Source of the DNA: Sedimenticola sp.
GTDB lineage: Bacteria; Pseudomonadota; Gammaproteobacteria; Chromatiales; Chromatiaceae
Assembly (NCBI GenBank): GCA_027083925.1
Contig: JALWMK010000122.1
Coordinates: 1-64,000 of the forward strand
Reading direction: 5' to 3'
Length of the DNA stretch: 64,000 nt
Positions 23,793 through 36,341 of this stretch are shown here, in pieces. The notes beneath the pieces are model-generated. The model ran no database searches and had not been told where the DNA came from. It worked only from the letters and a program-made list of their open reading frames with translations. The position numbers and the translations under genes are program-made. Position 1 is the first letter of the stretch; each line of letters begins with the position of its first letter.

Positions 23793-24083
23793 ATGCTACT
23801 CAACGAACTTCAGGGCAAACGCTCAGTTATCCAGGCCCTCGGACAGCGTTACGGTGCGCATCATATCCGAGTGTTCGGCTCGGTAGCTCGCGGCGAGGAA
23901 CGTCCGGACAGTGACGTGGATTCCTTGGTGGAACTTCCCCGCGGTTATGATCTGTTTCGTCAGCGCCTGCCACTGACTGAAGCATTGTCTGATTTGTTAG
24001 AGCGCCCGGTCGAAGTCATACCTGAACATGAATTGAGTCCGTACATCCGTCACCAGGTACTGGATGAGGCTGTCGAACTTTGA
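23793..24083 (+). CDS. MNT-type nucleotidyltransferase (MntA-like antitoxin)
   Basis: GSX10DXD motif HHIRVFGSVARGEERPDSDVDSLVEL; probable ATG 23793 (MLLNEL; ORF track starts at 23685); stop overlaps the HEPN frame. Confidence 0.85.
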   Translation: MLLNELQGKRSVIQALGQRYGAHHIRVFGSVARGEERPDSDVDSLVELPRGYDLFRQRLPLTEALSDLLERPVEVIPEHELSPYIRHQVLDEAVEL

Positions 24084-24433
24084 GCAAATCCTGGCAGCCA
24101 TACGCGCATCACATTCTGGAGGCTATCGATAAGATCCAGCGGATTGAGCAACGCGGTGACTTGGTGCAAGATGAGATTCTTTATGATGCCGCTCTGCGCA
24201 ATTTACAGACCCTGTCCGAAGCGACATAGCGTTTGCCGGAGGCGCAAAAACAATCCTGTCCCCATATCCCCTGGCGCGAGATCAGTGGTTTTCGCAATAT
24301 TCTGGTACACAATTATCTGGGAAACATCGATCCCATGACGGTGAAATCGGTGACCGAACAACATCTTGAGCCATTGGCCGATTGTGTCCGGAAACTGCTC
24401 CAACAAGACGGCAACGAGTCAATAGAGTCCTGA
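24080..24433 (+). pseudogene. HEPN (DUF86/HepT-like) toxin gene with in-frame amber codon
   Basis: Frame from TTG 24080 reads LSKSWQPYAHHILEAIDKIQRIEQRGDLVQDEILYDAALRNLQTLSEAT*RLPEAQKQSCPHIPWREISGFRNILVHNYLGNIDP...; TAG at 24227-24229; HEPN RX4H motif RNILVH lies after the stop. Confidence 0.8.
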
Positions 24434-24505
24434 GCCGTTCTTGTCTTTGCAAAATGCGCAGATGGTTTTACTGTGGCTCCGTTTCTCCCAGCATCCAAAG
24501 GAAAC

Positions 24506-24529
24506 AAAACTGTGGTCTGTCCCCTATTA
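24506..24529. repeat. Solitary REP-like end, AAAACTGTGGTCTGTCCCCTATTA
   Basis: Identical 24-mer at 27543-27566 and near-identical reverse complement at 26750-26772, which flank the Y1 transposase. Confidence 0.85.
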
Positions 24530-24697
24530 CCGCATTTCTGGGCGGGTAAATATCCTGACCCAGGTTCAGGCCGAGAAAGAGATGCCGTGTCTGTGTTTGA
24601 AATTAGCGAGAAACATGAAATATCTGCAAAGCAATTGTTTGAGTTAGTATCGCGGGTCATGTCTTATGCGGAAACCGTCATCAATGAAAAAACTTAA
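24530..24697 (+). pseudogene. Remnant of a cassette ORF, C-terminal fragment
   Basis: Open frame ...GRERDAVSVFEISEKHEISAKQLFELVSRVMSYAETVINEKT* ends 17 nt before attC-like site 1; N-terminus replaced by the REP-like sequence. Confidence 0.35.
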
Positions 24698-24713
24698 GCT
24701 AAAGAGTGCAGCA

Positions 24714-24792
24714 CATAACAATGCCATAAACTCGGACCGCAAAAAGCTGCGCTGCGCTCCGCTTTTTGCGTCCGGTTATGGCTGGCGTTATG
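24714..24792 (+). other. Integron attC-like recombination site 1
   Basis: CATAACAA...ATAAACTCGGACC...GTCCGGTTATGGCTGGCGTTATG: outer (CATAAC/GTTATG) and inner (CGGAC/GTCCG) arms pair, as in R''-L''...L'-R'. Confidence 0.7.
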
Positions 24793-25301
24793 TGGTTTGG
24801 CTTCAGCGCAAAAAGTGCTGGCAGTTGTGTGCATCACGTTCAGCGCATAGTTTAGGCTTTGAGGGTGCCCTCGTTCTTGCAGTGTTCCCGCTCAGTCTGC
24901 CATGACAGTGGCATGAAATTGCATTATTGCATCGGCTCCGCAGCCACAATCACCAATGCAACTGCCCCGGCAACTTGGCATGGAAAAACCCTGTGTAACG
25001 TGGTCTAATCAAACAGGTGCCAGCATTGTGGGGCAATGCTCGGCAAGATCCGAAGGGCCGTCCAGGTAAGGCAGTGTTGTTCTTGGTGCTTCGTATCGGG
25101 CGCAGAAGAAATAGGGAGGTTTATCGTTTTGTTCAATAAAGCCAACGTCAGGTTTATTGCCACAATTCCTGTCGGCAGTGCATTCAACCACATAACAAGT
25201 CTCTCAACCGGACGCTGCGCTTCGCTCCGCGGTTGTGCAGGCGGCGAGCGTCGTGGTTCTTCCAACTGTCGTTGCAGCCTCAAGGGCGCCGGTTAGCTTC
25301 T
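24785..25301. repeat. Cassette unit A of a tandem duplication (517 bp)
   Basis: Runs GCGTTATG to GCGTTATG; nearly identical over most of its length to 25302-25819. Confidence 0.85.
25009..25191 (-). CDS. Hypothetical cassette protein, reverse-oriented (60 aa)
   Basis: GTG-start frame VECTADRNCGNKPDVGFIEQNDKPPYFFCARYEAPRTTLPYLDGPSDLAEHCPTMLAPV; 3 of 5 differences from copy B are synonymous in this frame. Confidence 0.3.
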   Translation of the reverse strand: MVECTADRNCGNKPDVGFIEQNDKPPYFFCARYEAPRTTLPYLDGPSDLAEHCPTMLAPV

Positions 25302-25309
25302 GCGTTATG
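25191..25309 (+). other. Integron attC-like recombination site 2
   Basis: CATAACAAGTCTCTCAACCGGACGC...GCGCCGGTTAGCTTCTGCGTTATG; outer CATAAC/GTTATG and inner CAACCGG/CCGGTT arms. Confidence 0.75.
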
Positions 25310-25819
25310 TGGTTTGGCTTCAGCGCAAAAAGTGCTGGCAGTTGTGTGCATCACGTTCAGCGCATAGTTTAGGCTTTGAGGGTGCCGTCGTTCTGGCAGC
25401 GTTGCTGCTCAGTCTGCCATGACAGTGGCATAAAATCGCATTTTTGCATCGGCTCCGCAGCCACAATCACCAATGCAACTGACCCGGCAACTTGGCATGG
25501 AAAAACCCTGTGTAACGTGTTCTAATCAAACAGGTGCCAGCATTGTGGGGCAATGCTCGGCAAGATCCGAAGGGCCGTCCAGGTAAGGTAGTGTTGTTCT
25601 TGGTGCTTCGTATCAGGCGCAGAAGAAATAGGGAGGTTTATCGTTTTGTTCAATAAAGCCAACATCAGGTTCATTGCCACAATTTCTGTCGGCAGTGCAT
25701 TCAACCACATAACAAGTCTCTCAACCGGACGCTGTGCTTCGCACCGCCGCTCGTGCTGGCGGCGAGTTGGTTGGCATTGCCCCCGTTTGGTGGCGTAGTG
25801 TGGGCGCCGGTTAGCTTCA
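25302..25819. repeat. Cassette unit B of a tandem duplication (518 bp)
   Basis: Near-copy of 24785-25301; attC variable part diverged, and the reverse ORF has a nonsense change (CGA to TGA). Confidence 0.85.
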
Positions 25820-25827
25820 GCGTTAGG
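25708..25827 (+). other. Integron attC-like recombination site 3
   Basis: CATAACAAGTCTCTCAACCGGACGC...GCGCCGGTTAGCTTCAGCGTTAGGC; right core GTTAGGC fits GTTRRRY. Confidence 0.75.
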
Positions 25828-25879
25828 CTAAAAACTCATACATCACATTATAATTTGTAAACTAATCAAAAGGTCAATA

Positions 25880-26749
25880 ATGGCTATACTTAATAACTTA
25901 CCTCAAAAGCCTTATAAAAAGTTTTTTGGGAGACAAAAGACAATAGAGCATATAAAGACTGTGCTTTTAGATGGAAATACATTTATCGCGTCAATTGATG
26001 GTGTTGGTGGGATTGGTAAAACAGCATTAGCATACTATTTTTGCGATGAAGTATTGTTAAATGATGATTGTCCTGAGAGCAATCGATTTGATTATATAAT
26101 TTGGATTACTGCAAAAGATACTGTATTCGATGTCAACACCGAAAAAAATATGATAAAACATGTTAAAAATGATTTTCTAGGTGTAGAAACATTAATTAAT
26201 ACAGTAATTGATACAACTAACTTTGATGATGAGTTGCGTAATAAAACATTTAAAGATAAAAAGAAATTTGTTGAAGATGAAATTCTAAAAAAAGAACCAA
26301 TATTCTTTGTTCTAGATAATCTAGAAAATATTCATGACCCAGTTTTTTTCGAATATATAACTAAAGAATTCAACCTATTTGCAGCAAATAATAGAAACCT
26401 AAAAGTATTAACAACGAGTAGAAGAAGAAAAAAAATTGCTGATTTTCCAATTGAAATTGAAGGGTTATGTGCTGATGATGCTCTAAATATGCTTCTTTTT
26501 CATGCTCATGAGAATAAAATTAATGACATTATAAATGCAACTGAACATAATAATCGGATACTTGTCACTAAGGTTGGAAATATACCACTAGGTGTTGAGT
26601 TTATAATTGGCCAAATGAAATTAGGTAAAAGCAGAGGGAAAATATACGAAGAATTAAATGGTTATCCATCACTAGAAGATAATATAAATGAAGCTGAAAA
26701 GAAAAAAAGAATGTCTGAGATAATAGCGTTCTCTTTTAAAGATATGCAA
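25880..26749 (+). pseudogene. STAND/NB-ARC-like NTPase, 3'-truncated by a Y1 transposase element
   Basis: FFGRQKTIEHIKTVLLDGNTFIASIDGVGGIGKTALAYYF (Walker A), EPIFFVLDNLENIHD (Walker B), LKVLTTSRRRKK; AT-rich; frame (ORF to 26803) runs into the element starting at 26750. Confidence 0.75.
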
Positions 26750-27566
26750 AATAGGGGACAGACCACGGTTTTTCGTGCTATGCTTCAGCCTGATCCCCAC
26801 TAACCAACAGTTGACCATGCCACGACGCCCAAGGATCGTTTTGCCAGGTGTTCCGCTGCATCTGATTCAGCGGGGAAATAATCGGCAGGCGTGTTTCTTT
26901 GAGGAGGATGACTACCGGTTCTATCTGGAGTGGTTGATTACCTATGCCAAGGATGCCGGGTGTGCGGTACATGCCTATGTGCTGATGACCAATCACGTCC
27001 ATCTGTTGCTTACGCCCACAACCGCTGGCGGCGCGGGTGAATTGATGAAGCGATTGGGGCAGCGGTATGTCCAATACGTCAACCGGATGTACCGACGCAG
27101 CGGAACCTTATGGGAGGGACGCTTCCGCTCGTGTCTGACGCAGGAGGATTCCTATGTATTGGGCTGTTATCGGTACATCGAACTCAATCCGGTGCGCGCG
27201 GGCATGGTCGGGCACCCAGGCGAGTACCGTTGGTCGAGTTACCGGGCAAATGCGCAAGGTGAGATGGAAGCGGGATTGCAAGCACACGCCTGTTATCGTG
27301 CCTTGGGAAAAGATAAGGAGAAGCGGCAGGCAGCTTACCGGGAACTGTTTCGCACCCAGCTCGATCCGGGCCTGGTGGATCAGGTTCGTGAGGCAACAAA
27401 CGGCAACTATGCCTTGGGCAGTTCCCGCTTTCAGGAAGAGGTGGGCAGAGCCTTGGGGCGCCGCGTTGTTCGCGGGAGATCCGGTCGACCAAAGAAACAG
27501 CCAAACACCGCCACAATGGCGCTGTTCGATTCTGACTGATTCAAAACTGTGGTCTGTCCCCTATTA
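26750..27566. mobile_element. REP-associated tyrosine transposase element with inverted flanks
   Basis: AATAGGGGACAGACCACGGTTTT (26750-26772) and AAAACTGTGGTCTGTCCCCTATTA (27543-27566) are near-perfect inverted repeats around the transposase. Confidence 0.85.
26817..27539 (+). CDS. REP-associated tyrosine transposase (Y1/IS200-like fold, TnpA_REP)
   Basis: MPRRPRIVLPGVPLHLIQRGNNRQACFFEEDDYRFYLEWL...HAYVLMTNHVHLLLTP (HUH) ...YVQYVNRMYRRSGTLWEGRFRSCL...YIELNPVRAGMV. Confidence 0.95.
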   Translation: MPRRPRIVLPGVPLHLIQRGNNRQACFFEEDDYRFYLEWLITYAKDAGCAVHAYVLMTNHVHLLLTPTTAGGAGELMKRLGQRYVQYVNRMYRRSGTLWEGRFRSCLTQEDSYVLGCYRYIELNPVRAGMVGHPGEYRWSSYRANAQGEMEAGLQAHACYRALGKDKEKRQAAYRELFRTQLDPGLVDQVREATNGNYALGSSRFQEEVGRALGRRVVRGRSGRPKKQPNTATMALFDSD

Positions 27567-27570
27567 CTAG

Positions 27571-27654
27571 AGAAACTCAGGAAATACCATCAGAATCATC
27601 AGCGCCCGTAAAGCGACCAAGAATGAACGTAGGTTCTACGAAGGTGGTGAATGA
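27571..27654 (+). pseudogene. BrnT toxin, C-terminal remnant
   Basis: Frame reads RNSGNTIRIISARKATKNERRFYEGGE*, a BrnT C-terminal signature; N-terminal part absent, replaced by the transposase element. Confidence 0.75.
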
Positions 27655-27878
27655 TGAAAAAAGAATATGATTTATCCAAAATGAAATCACGGAAGAACCC
27701 TTATGCTTCAAAGCTCAAGAAGCCAGTAACAATGAGGCTTAGTGAGGATGTTATTGATTATTTCAAAGACATGGCTGAAGAGTCTGGGGTTCCATATCAA
27801 AGTTTAATTAATTTATATCTCAGAGACTGTGTAGCGCAACACAGGAAAGTAGATATCACATGGCATAAACAGGCCTAA
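27651..27878 (+). CDS. brnA: BrnA family antitoxin
   Basis: 75 aa, KKPVTMRLSEDVIDYFKDMAEESGVPYQSLINLYLRDCVAQHRK; ATGA overlap with the BrnT remnant. Confidence 0.8.
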   Translation: MMKKEYDLSKMKSRKNPYASKLKKPVTMRLSEDVIDYFKDMAEESGVPYQSLINLYLRDCVAQHRKVDITWHKQA

Positions 27879-28132
27879 CACACGCCCTGAGGTAGTCCGT
27901 CAAGGAAAAACCGATTAATTTCCGAGTTCTTTAACCAGCGGAGAACCCTGGTAAGAGCTACTTCTTCTGCTTCACCCATTCTCTTCTCCGCGACTAAAAG
28001 CGCAGCATGCAGAGAAAAGGTTCAGCCTGACAGAGTGTGGTATATTTTGCGCTTACACTCCCTTGACAAGAGTCACGTCACCAGGAAAGGGCATGCTTGA
28101 AGCCACTAACAGATTGATTAACAAAAGAAAAA

Positions 28133-28228
28133 CCATCCTGTGCCTGCCTGCAGACCGCGTTATCAAAACTGACTGTAGAAGTGCTATAGCGGCACTTTGA
28201 TGCCTTGCATTAGGCAGGCACAGGATGG
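28133..28228 (+). other. Candidate structured element: 17-bp perfect inverted repeat with nested stems
   Basis: CCATCCTGTGCCTGCCT (28133-28149) / AGGCAGGCACAGGATGG (28212-28228); nested ATCAA/TTGAT (28162/28197) and AGTGC/GCACT (28180/28192). Confidence 0.5.
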
Positions 28229-34762: not shown

Positions 34763-35433
34763 GCAGCAATATCGACCGGGAATTTGAACAGCAAATTTGT
34801 GACTATCTGCTGTATCACCCTAGCTTCTTTTTACGTCACACCGACATACTCAATGACCTGCGTGTGCCACATAAAACCGGTGGTGCCGTTTCTCTGCTTG
34901 AGCACAAAATCCGTATGCTCCAGGACAAGGCGGAAGCCTACCAGAAGCAACTGCAGGAGCTGCTCACAGTCGCCCGCGACAATGAACAGCTCAACCAGCG
35001 CCTGCACCGGTTGACGCTGAACCTGATCGAGGCGGAAAGCCGGGAAGATGTCCTCGCCATCCTGCAGGATGAATTGCGCGAGCGCTTCAATGCCGACGCC
35101 GTGGAACTCAAGCTGTTTTCCACCCGCGAGCTGGAAGAAGCCCGGGTCAGCGAGTCGGGATTGGCCCTGTTCCGCACCTTTATGGACAGCGACAAGCCCA
35201 CCTGCGGCCCCCTCAAGGCAGACAAGCTCAAAACCCTGTTTGGCGACCAGGCCGGGGAAGAAGGCTCCGCCGCCCTCATCCCCATTCGTACCAGCGACCT
35301 TTCCGGTATCCTGGCCATTGGCAGCCAGGACCGGGAACGCTTCCACTCTGGCAAGAGCGTGGACTTCCTGGTGCGCCTTGGGGAATTGGTCAGCCTCAGC
35401 CTGCAGGCCATGGATTCCCGCAAAAAGCCATGA
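34759..35433 (+). CDS. DUF484 family protein
   Basis: YLLYHPSFFLRHTDILNDLRVPHKTGGAVSLLEHKIRMLQDKA; dapF-DUF484-xerC order. Confidence 0.93.
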   Translation: MSSNIDREFEQQICDYLLYHPSFFLRHTDILNDLRVPHKTGGAVSLLEHKIRMLQDKAEAYQKQLQELLTVARDNEQLNQRLHRLTLNLIEAESREDVLAILQDELRERFNADAVELKLFSTRELEEARVSESGLALFRTFMDSDKPTCGPLKADKLKTLFGDQAGEEGSAALIPIRTSDLSGILAIGSQDRERFHSGKSVDFLVRLGELVSLSLQAMDSRKKP

Positions 35434-36341
35434 GCACTGTCGCCACCAGTGACGACCCACTGGTGGAAAAATTTCTGCAGCATCTCGCCCTGGAAAGGCG
35501 GCTGTCGCCCCGCACCATCGACGCCTATCGCCGGGATCTGGCAGATTTTCTCAAGTGGCATCCGCATCAAGACCGACTGGACTGGAACACGCTGCATCAG
35601 TCGGAAATACGCAGCTATGCCGCCCAACGCCACCGCCAGGGACTTTCCGCAAAAAGCCTGCAGCGCCGGCTGGCGGCCCTGCGATCATTTTTCCGCTTCC
35701 TCAACAGGGAAGGCCTTGGCCAGCAAAATCCCGCTATCGGGGTTCGTGCGCCCAAGGTGAAACGCAAACTGCCCGCCACCCTGGATGTGGATCAACTCGG
35801 CCATTTGCTCGAACTACCTGGCGAAACACCCCTGGATCTGCGCGATCAGGCAATCATGGAGCTGCTGTATTCTTCCGGCCTGCGCCTGGCGGAGCTGGTC
35901 TCCATCGATCTTCACAGCCTTGACCACAATGACGCCATGCTGGAAGTGACCGGCAAAGGCAGCAAAACTCGCCGCCTACCGGTTGGCCGCAAGGCGCTGG
36001 AAGCTGTCGATCAATGGTTAAAGGTACGCGGAGAGCTTGCCGGCGCTGGTGAAACAGCACTATTCGTCAGCCAGCGCGGCGGCCGCCTGAGTGCCCGGTC
36101 GGTGCAAAGCCGTCTGGCTCTGCGCGCCAGAGAGCAAGGCTCTCCCCGCCATGTGCATCCCCACATGCTACGCCATTCCTTTGCCAGCCACCTGCTGGAA
36201 TCCTCCGGTGATTTACGTGCCGTGCAGGAACTGCTGGGTCATACCGATATCAGCACCACCCAGATCTATACCCACCTGGATTTCCAACACCTGGCGGAAG
36301 TCTACGACCAGGCCCATCCCCGGGCAGGGAAGAAAAAATAG
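35430..36341 (+). CDS. xerC: Tyrosine recombinase XerC
   Basis: Catalytic R-H-R-Y set: GLRLAEL, HPHMLRHSFASHLLE, ELLGHTDISTTQIYTHLDF. Confidence 0.96.
   Translation: MSTVATSDDPLVEKFLQHLALERRLSPRTIDAYRRDLADFLKWHPHQDRLDWNTLHQSEIRSYAAQRHRQGLSAKSLQRRLAALRSFFRFLNREGLGQQNPAIGVRAPKVKRKLPATLDVDQLGHLLELPGETPLDLRDQAIMELLYSSGLRLAELVSIDLHSLDHNDAMLEVTGKGSKTRRLPVGRKALEAVDQWLKVRGELAGAGETALFVSQRGGRLSARSVQSRLALRAREQGSPRHVHPHMLRHSFASHLLESSGDLRAVQELLGHTDISTTQIYTHLDFQHLAEVYDQAHPRAGKKK

Follow-up and report, generated by a model that had tools for sequence, protein, structure and literature searches.

A CALIN-type cassette cluster at the qmoA-moaE junction of a Thiolapillus chromosome

Analysis of the window, a stretch of 64,000 nucleotides (64 kb) from the chromosome of a Thiolapillus sulfur oxidizer, revealed a locus that is almost certainly a CALIN, i.e., an attC cluster without an integrase, for which the IntegronFinder 2.0 default is at least two sites (PMC9024848). 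Three attC sites were located inside 1.1 kb and were the only window matches with a score of at least 20, and integrase searches of the same genome returned only xerC, below the integron-integrase cut-off, from the contig of the window. The combination that defines a complete integron (intI and attI adjoining a cassette array) was not found at the locus, intI being on another contig (C93). As a whole, the locus is very probably best explained as a CALIN occupying the qmoA-moaE junction, a secondary site on the chromosome apart from the integron platforms of the genome, and the cluster is a lineage-specific secondary cassette site rather than a split integron. A sequence-only reading of the window had already applied the CALIN label, which agrees with the three attC, the cassette spacing and orientation, and the lack of a nearby integrase. 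The label is refined here in that the integrase is missing locally only, other contigs carrying an intact intI and a truncated one; the cluster also holds two tandem near-identical ORF-less cassettes, a fourth attC surviving as R'' alone, and an NTPase cassette gene that has been truncated by a REP-type transposase element.

Judged by their sequence features, the three hairpin sites were confirmed as real attC marking a small, partly broken cassette cluster, and they lie within 1-2 nt of where the sequence-only reading had placed them. A scan of both strands identified all three on the + strand as attC1 (24713-24793, 81 nt, score 27.7), attC2 (25190-25310, 121 nt, score 26.5), and attC3 (25707-25828, 122 nt, score 25.4). 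The scorer was home-made, trained only on 16 outside attC sites drawn from class 1 integrons and the integrons of cyanobacterial plasmids, and uncalibrated against HattCI/IntegronFinder. When the window was dinucleotide-shuffled 400 times, scores of at least 25.4 turned up at a rate of 0.0275 per 64 kb; attC2 and attC3 are not independent of each other as they are mutual duplicates. The paired arms described earlier were likewise present. R'' was ACATAAC in all three sites, while R' was GTTATGT in attC1 and attC2 and GTTAGGC in attC3, giving boxes of the RYYYAAC/GTTRRRY type with 7/7 pairs in the two GTTATGT cases and partial pairing in the GTTAGGC case. Besides these outer pairs, attC2 and attC3 had CAACCGG/CCGGTT arms within an L''/L' stem in which CT(c)AACCGG(a)CGC stood opposite GCGCCGGTTAG, and the arms of attC1 read CATAA..CGGAC/GTCCGGTTATG.

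Bottom-strand folding and inspection of extrahelical bases, both suggested as checks by the earlier reading, gave different outcomes for the sites. attC1 folded strongly (-26 kcal/mol, z -6.6) and had a non-canonical spacing of its bulges. In attC2 and attC3, a sequence reading gave two bulged, extrahelical bases with the canonical 6-nt spacing of aadA-type sites, and thermodynamic folding was no better than for shuffles. A small covariance model with a short loop, built from the same 16 outside sites, had attC1 as its sole window match (22.2 bits, E 0.008) and found sites on contig C106, among them a near-identical 122-nt copy of attC3 at 27.9 bits (E 6e-4); the long attC2 and attC3 were missed, likely because of the short loop. 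The same model lost all three window sites with filters off and reported a single C106 site in the genome search, and a MAFFT alignment of full-length attC sites was rejected as the basis of a long-loop model because the arms were misaligned. attC1 was identical at 75/81 positions to an attC of the Thiolapillus brandeum plasmid pTBH13; its alignment with the C93 attC, with which it shares L-box sequence, had 71/93 columns identical.

All features of the cluster and its left flank are on the + strand. The left flank carries an MNT nucleotidyltransferase gene (23794-24083; Pfam NTP_transf_2, 48.9 bits) and, adjoining the cluster, a partner ORF interrupted by an in-frame TAG (~24080-24433) that was recognized by eye as a probable HEPN. 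The truncated left end of the array is marked by a 26-nt REP-type end repeat (24505-24530, a 100% copy of 27542-27567), followed by the 3' ORF remnant of cassette 0 (24531-24697); the ORF at 24473-24697 had no Pfam match. Two ORF-less cassettes are then found in tandem, copy 1 of 517 bp (24794-25310) ending in attC2 and copy 2 of 518 bp (25311-25828) ending in attC3, and next comes a 3'-truncated NB-ARC NTPase cassette gene (25880-26749; Pfam NB-ARC, 40.3 bits, above cut-off). The placement of the remnant ORF and of the NTPase gene corresponded to the cassette layout proposed earlier, with gaps of 15 nt before attC1 (17 in that reading) and 52 nt after attC3 (~60 in that reading). The NTPase gene is cut at 26750, where a REP-associated (Y1) transposase element with 23-bp inverted ends begins (26750-27565; transposase ORF 26817-27539; Y1_Tnp 43 bits; NF047646 60.7 bits, below the cut-off of 80). 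Near-copies of the REP-type end repeat numbered five genome-wide, three in the cluster (24505-24530, 26750-26772, and 27542-27567) and the remaining two at C171:759-809.

To the right of the transposase element are the C-terminal remnant of a BrnT-like toxin (27568-27648; reading ..NTIRIISARKATKNERRFYEGGE*, with the family assigned by eye and not by profile), a brnA antitoxin gene (27651-27878; BrnA_antitoxin, 39.8 bits, above cut-off), and an R'' half-site, GCCTAAC (27873-27879), with the end of an IS110-type element directly after it (27880-27951, the end being approximate at ~27951). This IS end was 86-89% identical to sequences on the T. brandeum chromosome (two copies), the plasmid pTBH10, and C93 of the same genome. 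It stands directly after CTAAC five times in the genus: once each in the window, on C93, and on pTBH10, as well as at two points of the chromosomal integron array of T. brandeum. Because the IS end follows CTAAC at the four sites outside the window, the window junction marks a destroyed fourth attC (attC4). The IS110-type element is of an attC-targeting kind. Further right, just before moaE, the window contains a perfect 17-bp inverted repeat (CCATCCTGTGCCTGCCT) with a 62-nt spacer (28133-28228), which was not found in the other loci compared. An Rfam scan of the 8 kb around the cluster returned nothing relevant.

The earlier statement that an intI-like ORF is absent held within the 64 kb but not genome-wide. 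In the window, xerC (35430-36341; TIGR02224, 367 bits, above cut-off) was the sole tyrosine-recombinase gene found; it scored 127 bits against the integron-integrase model, below the cut-off of 265. An intact IntI of 321 aa was encoded at C93:5272-6237 (TIGR02249, 492 bits, cut-off 265), and its Arg/Lys/His-Arg/His-Tyr motif stretches were as expected. Its gene adjoins mnmG-, mnmE-, and yidC-like genes (recognized by eye), and on the other side are genes for a TrlF-family ATPase, an Eco47II-type restriction enzyme, and a cytosine methylase, with an attC identified by the scorer at C93:2436-2528. Within C93:1-6237, the TrlF-family ATPase and the Eco47II-type restriction-modification pair are likely defense genes carried in cassettes. 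A second intI (C106:6908-7630) was truncated to its N-terminal (SAM-like) part behind a 155-residue extension; it lies between rlmH and an array of at least five attC that extends to the contig end. A match to the same integrase positions (7-91) as in this remnant was also observed in a relative (genome G001, contig C316).

The ORF-less cassette connects the window to the C106 array. The bodies of the two window copies were identical at 381/396 positions, and a further copy on C106 (C106:5247-5763) matched window copy 1 in its body (395/397 identical) and window copy 2 in its attC (120/122 identical). The window match to C106 runs over 25303-25828, with unit boundaries at the R' GTTATGT, and the neighbors of the shared cassette differ between the two arrays. 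These R'-bounded ends and the different neighbors show that the 517-bp cassette was either transferred or copied as one piece. On sequence comparison, the copies appear to have recombined since then, the C106 copy resembling a mosaic of both copies in the window. A related cassette was found in tandem in a second Thiolapillus species (G001, 85% identity), a weaker relative (73%) on pTBH13 in T. brandeum (G006), and a 40-bp scrap in genome G005 of the relatives search, while among 369 genomes sampled across the class the cassette occurred in its own genome only. A conserved protein encoded by the cassette was rejected, as the best ORF had in-frame stops in copy 2 and in the copies of two relatives and changes were without bias to synonymous sites; a conserved RNA structure was similarly unsupported (0 pairs with compensatory change). 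The cassette may be inert or promoter-carrying. That a single live integrase serves three separate loci (C93, C106 with its dead intI, and the window), with the 517-bp unit shared, possibly regulatory, tandem-duplicated, and exchanged among them, is a tentative and rather improbable scenario.

The insertion site was defined by comparison with relatives. In ten congeners, including one with a complete genome, the left flank (homology to ~23741) and moaE (from ~28266) were syntenic and 0.9-4.2 kb apart, and neither an attC scoring at least 18 nor an intI was detected at the qmoA-moaE junction of these ten sampled congeners. With the junction empty in all ten, the cluster is specific to the source lineage among those sampled. 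Nine of the ten had a cbbQ-like (cbbQ/norQ-like) AAA ATPase gene at the junction, and in the tenth, the closest relative G009 (95.3% identity across 3.7 kb of the left flank), this gene was present as fragments only. An ortholog of the cbbQ-like gene was absent from the source genome (best match 62% identical), and a search for remnants of the displaced gene at the junction in the source genome found none.

IntI-mediated seeding of the cluster has about even chances of being correct. IntI acting in trans would have delivered the cassettes singly to this site, probably by recombination between attC and a secondary (attG-like) site, and the landing stretch would be the place where the unrelated cbbQ-like gene had been lost. 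attG-type integration has been reported by Loot et al. 2024, as cited in PMC12444791. Afterwards, REP-type and IS110-type elements would have truncated both sides, and the intact attC sites are predicted to fold from the bottom strand and to remain excisable by the resident IntI. The shared cassette with different neighbors means that transfer took place at the cassette level. As the left end of the array is truncated, no seeding junction (attG) is readable.

Two other origins are less probable. The locus could be a decayed integron platform that formerly had its own intI, given the proposal that CALINs arise by degradation of integrons (PMC9024848) and the decay seen in the genus, where the C106 intI is reduced to its N-terminal part. 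However, no intI remnant was found at the locus, the sampled congeners were without intI or attC here, including the one ~95% identical in the left flank, and the genomes examined had intI at other loci. A decayed platform is considered unlikely because neither intI nor attC is known at this junction. Import of the cassettes within a transposon-like unit bounded by REP-type ends (24505-27567) is doubtful to a similar degree. The direct 26-nt repeats do flank most of the cluster, and the transposase with its inverted ends is at the right edge, with only two other near-copies in the genome. Nevertheless, the sequences outside this putative unit do not add up to a single interrupted gene, with a BrnT remnant on the right side only; BrnT/BrnA and the attC4 remnant, which are cassette material too, lie outside it; and the exact R'-bounded cassette ends are common to C106.

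It is very unlikely that the cluster is a distal piece of one of the genome's integrons split off by draft assembly. In this draft genome of 176 contigs, repeats or IS elements mark the contig ends at which both the C93 and C106 arrays break off; drafts are also known to yield false CALINs from split integrons (PMC9024848), and the 517-bp cassette is itself a repeat able to cause mis-joins. However, the array is inside a contig of 98,954 bp (C122) with chromosomal genes on both sides, and qmoA and moaE are neighbors in the congeners described above, the complete genome included; a split is thus unlikely because both flanks belong together in relatives. It is scarcely credible that chance or unrelated inverted repeats account for the sites: attC2 and attC3 are long, weakly folding, and missed in the window by the small covariance model, but scores were far above shuffles, extrahelical bases had canonical spacing, and the cassettes are shared with integrase-associated arrays and have homologous tandem cassettes in another species.

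The CALIN at this secondary site adds Thiolapillus, a genus of vent-associated sulfur oxidizers related to gastropod symbionts (PMC4136832), to the genera carrying integrons. The terms "integron" and "attC" do not occur in the main text of the T. brandeum genome paper, and the literature searched contained no paper mentioning Thiolapillus together with an integron. The third contig of T. brandeum (G006) was identified as plasmid pTBH13 (NZ_AP012275.1; 100% identical over the stretch searched), whose array resembles that of the window in having at least six attC, one of them the close match of attC1, without an annotated integrase and in including a cassette that matches part of the 517-bp one at 73% identity. 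In contrast to the window, the pTBH13 array is on a 13.5-kb plasmid and its cassettes include TIR, caspase-family, FRG, and cytidine deaminase genes. The adjacent TIR-protein and caspase-family genes are a possible defense module. IS elements that target attC are known, as in the IS1111-attC group (discussed in PMC11187229), and the element at attC4 is similarly an IS110/IS1111-type element inside the attC sites of cassettes; unlike that group, only its terminal ~72 bp are kept in the window and its family label comes from the pTBH10 copy annotated as IS110.

In Xanthomonas, CALINs away from the ilvD platform are common and can be mobilized in trans by a functional IntI (PMC12444791). The present cluster is similar to these in being at a chromosomal locus other than the intI platform, whereas the positions of Xanthomonas CALINs are relatively conserved across species and the present site was empty in all ten sampled congeners. 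The locus bears on the question of whether CALINs derive from dead integrons or from cassettes seeded by an active integrase, and the combination of an empty site in ten congeners, a near-identical shared cassette, and an intact IntI in trans makes it a good natural test of seeding. Compared to the CALINs of IntegronFinder 2.0 (PMC9024848) there is no qualitative difference, and the locus is not a new kind of system but a well-placed example of a known one; beyond that definition, its genome has one intact and one truncated intI and an insertion site defined by empty relatives.
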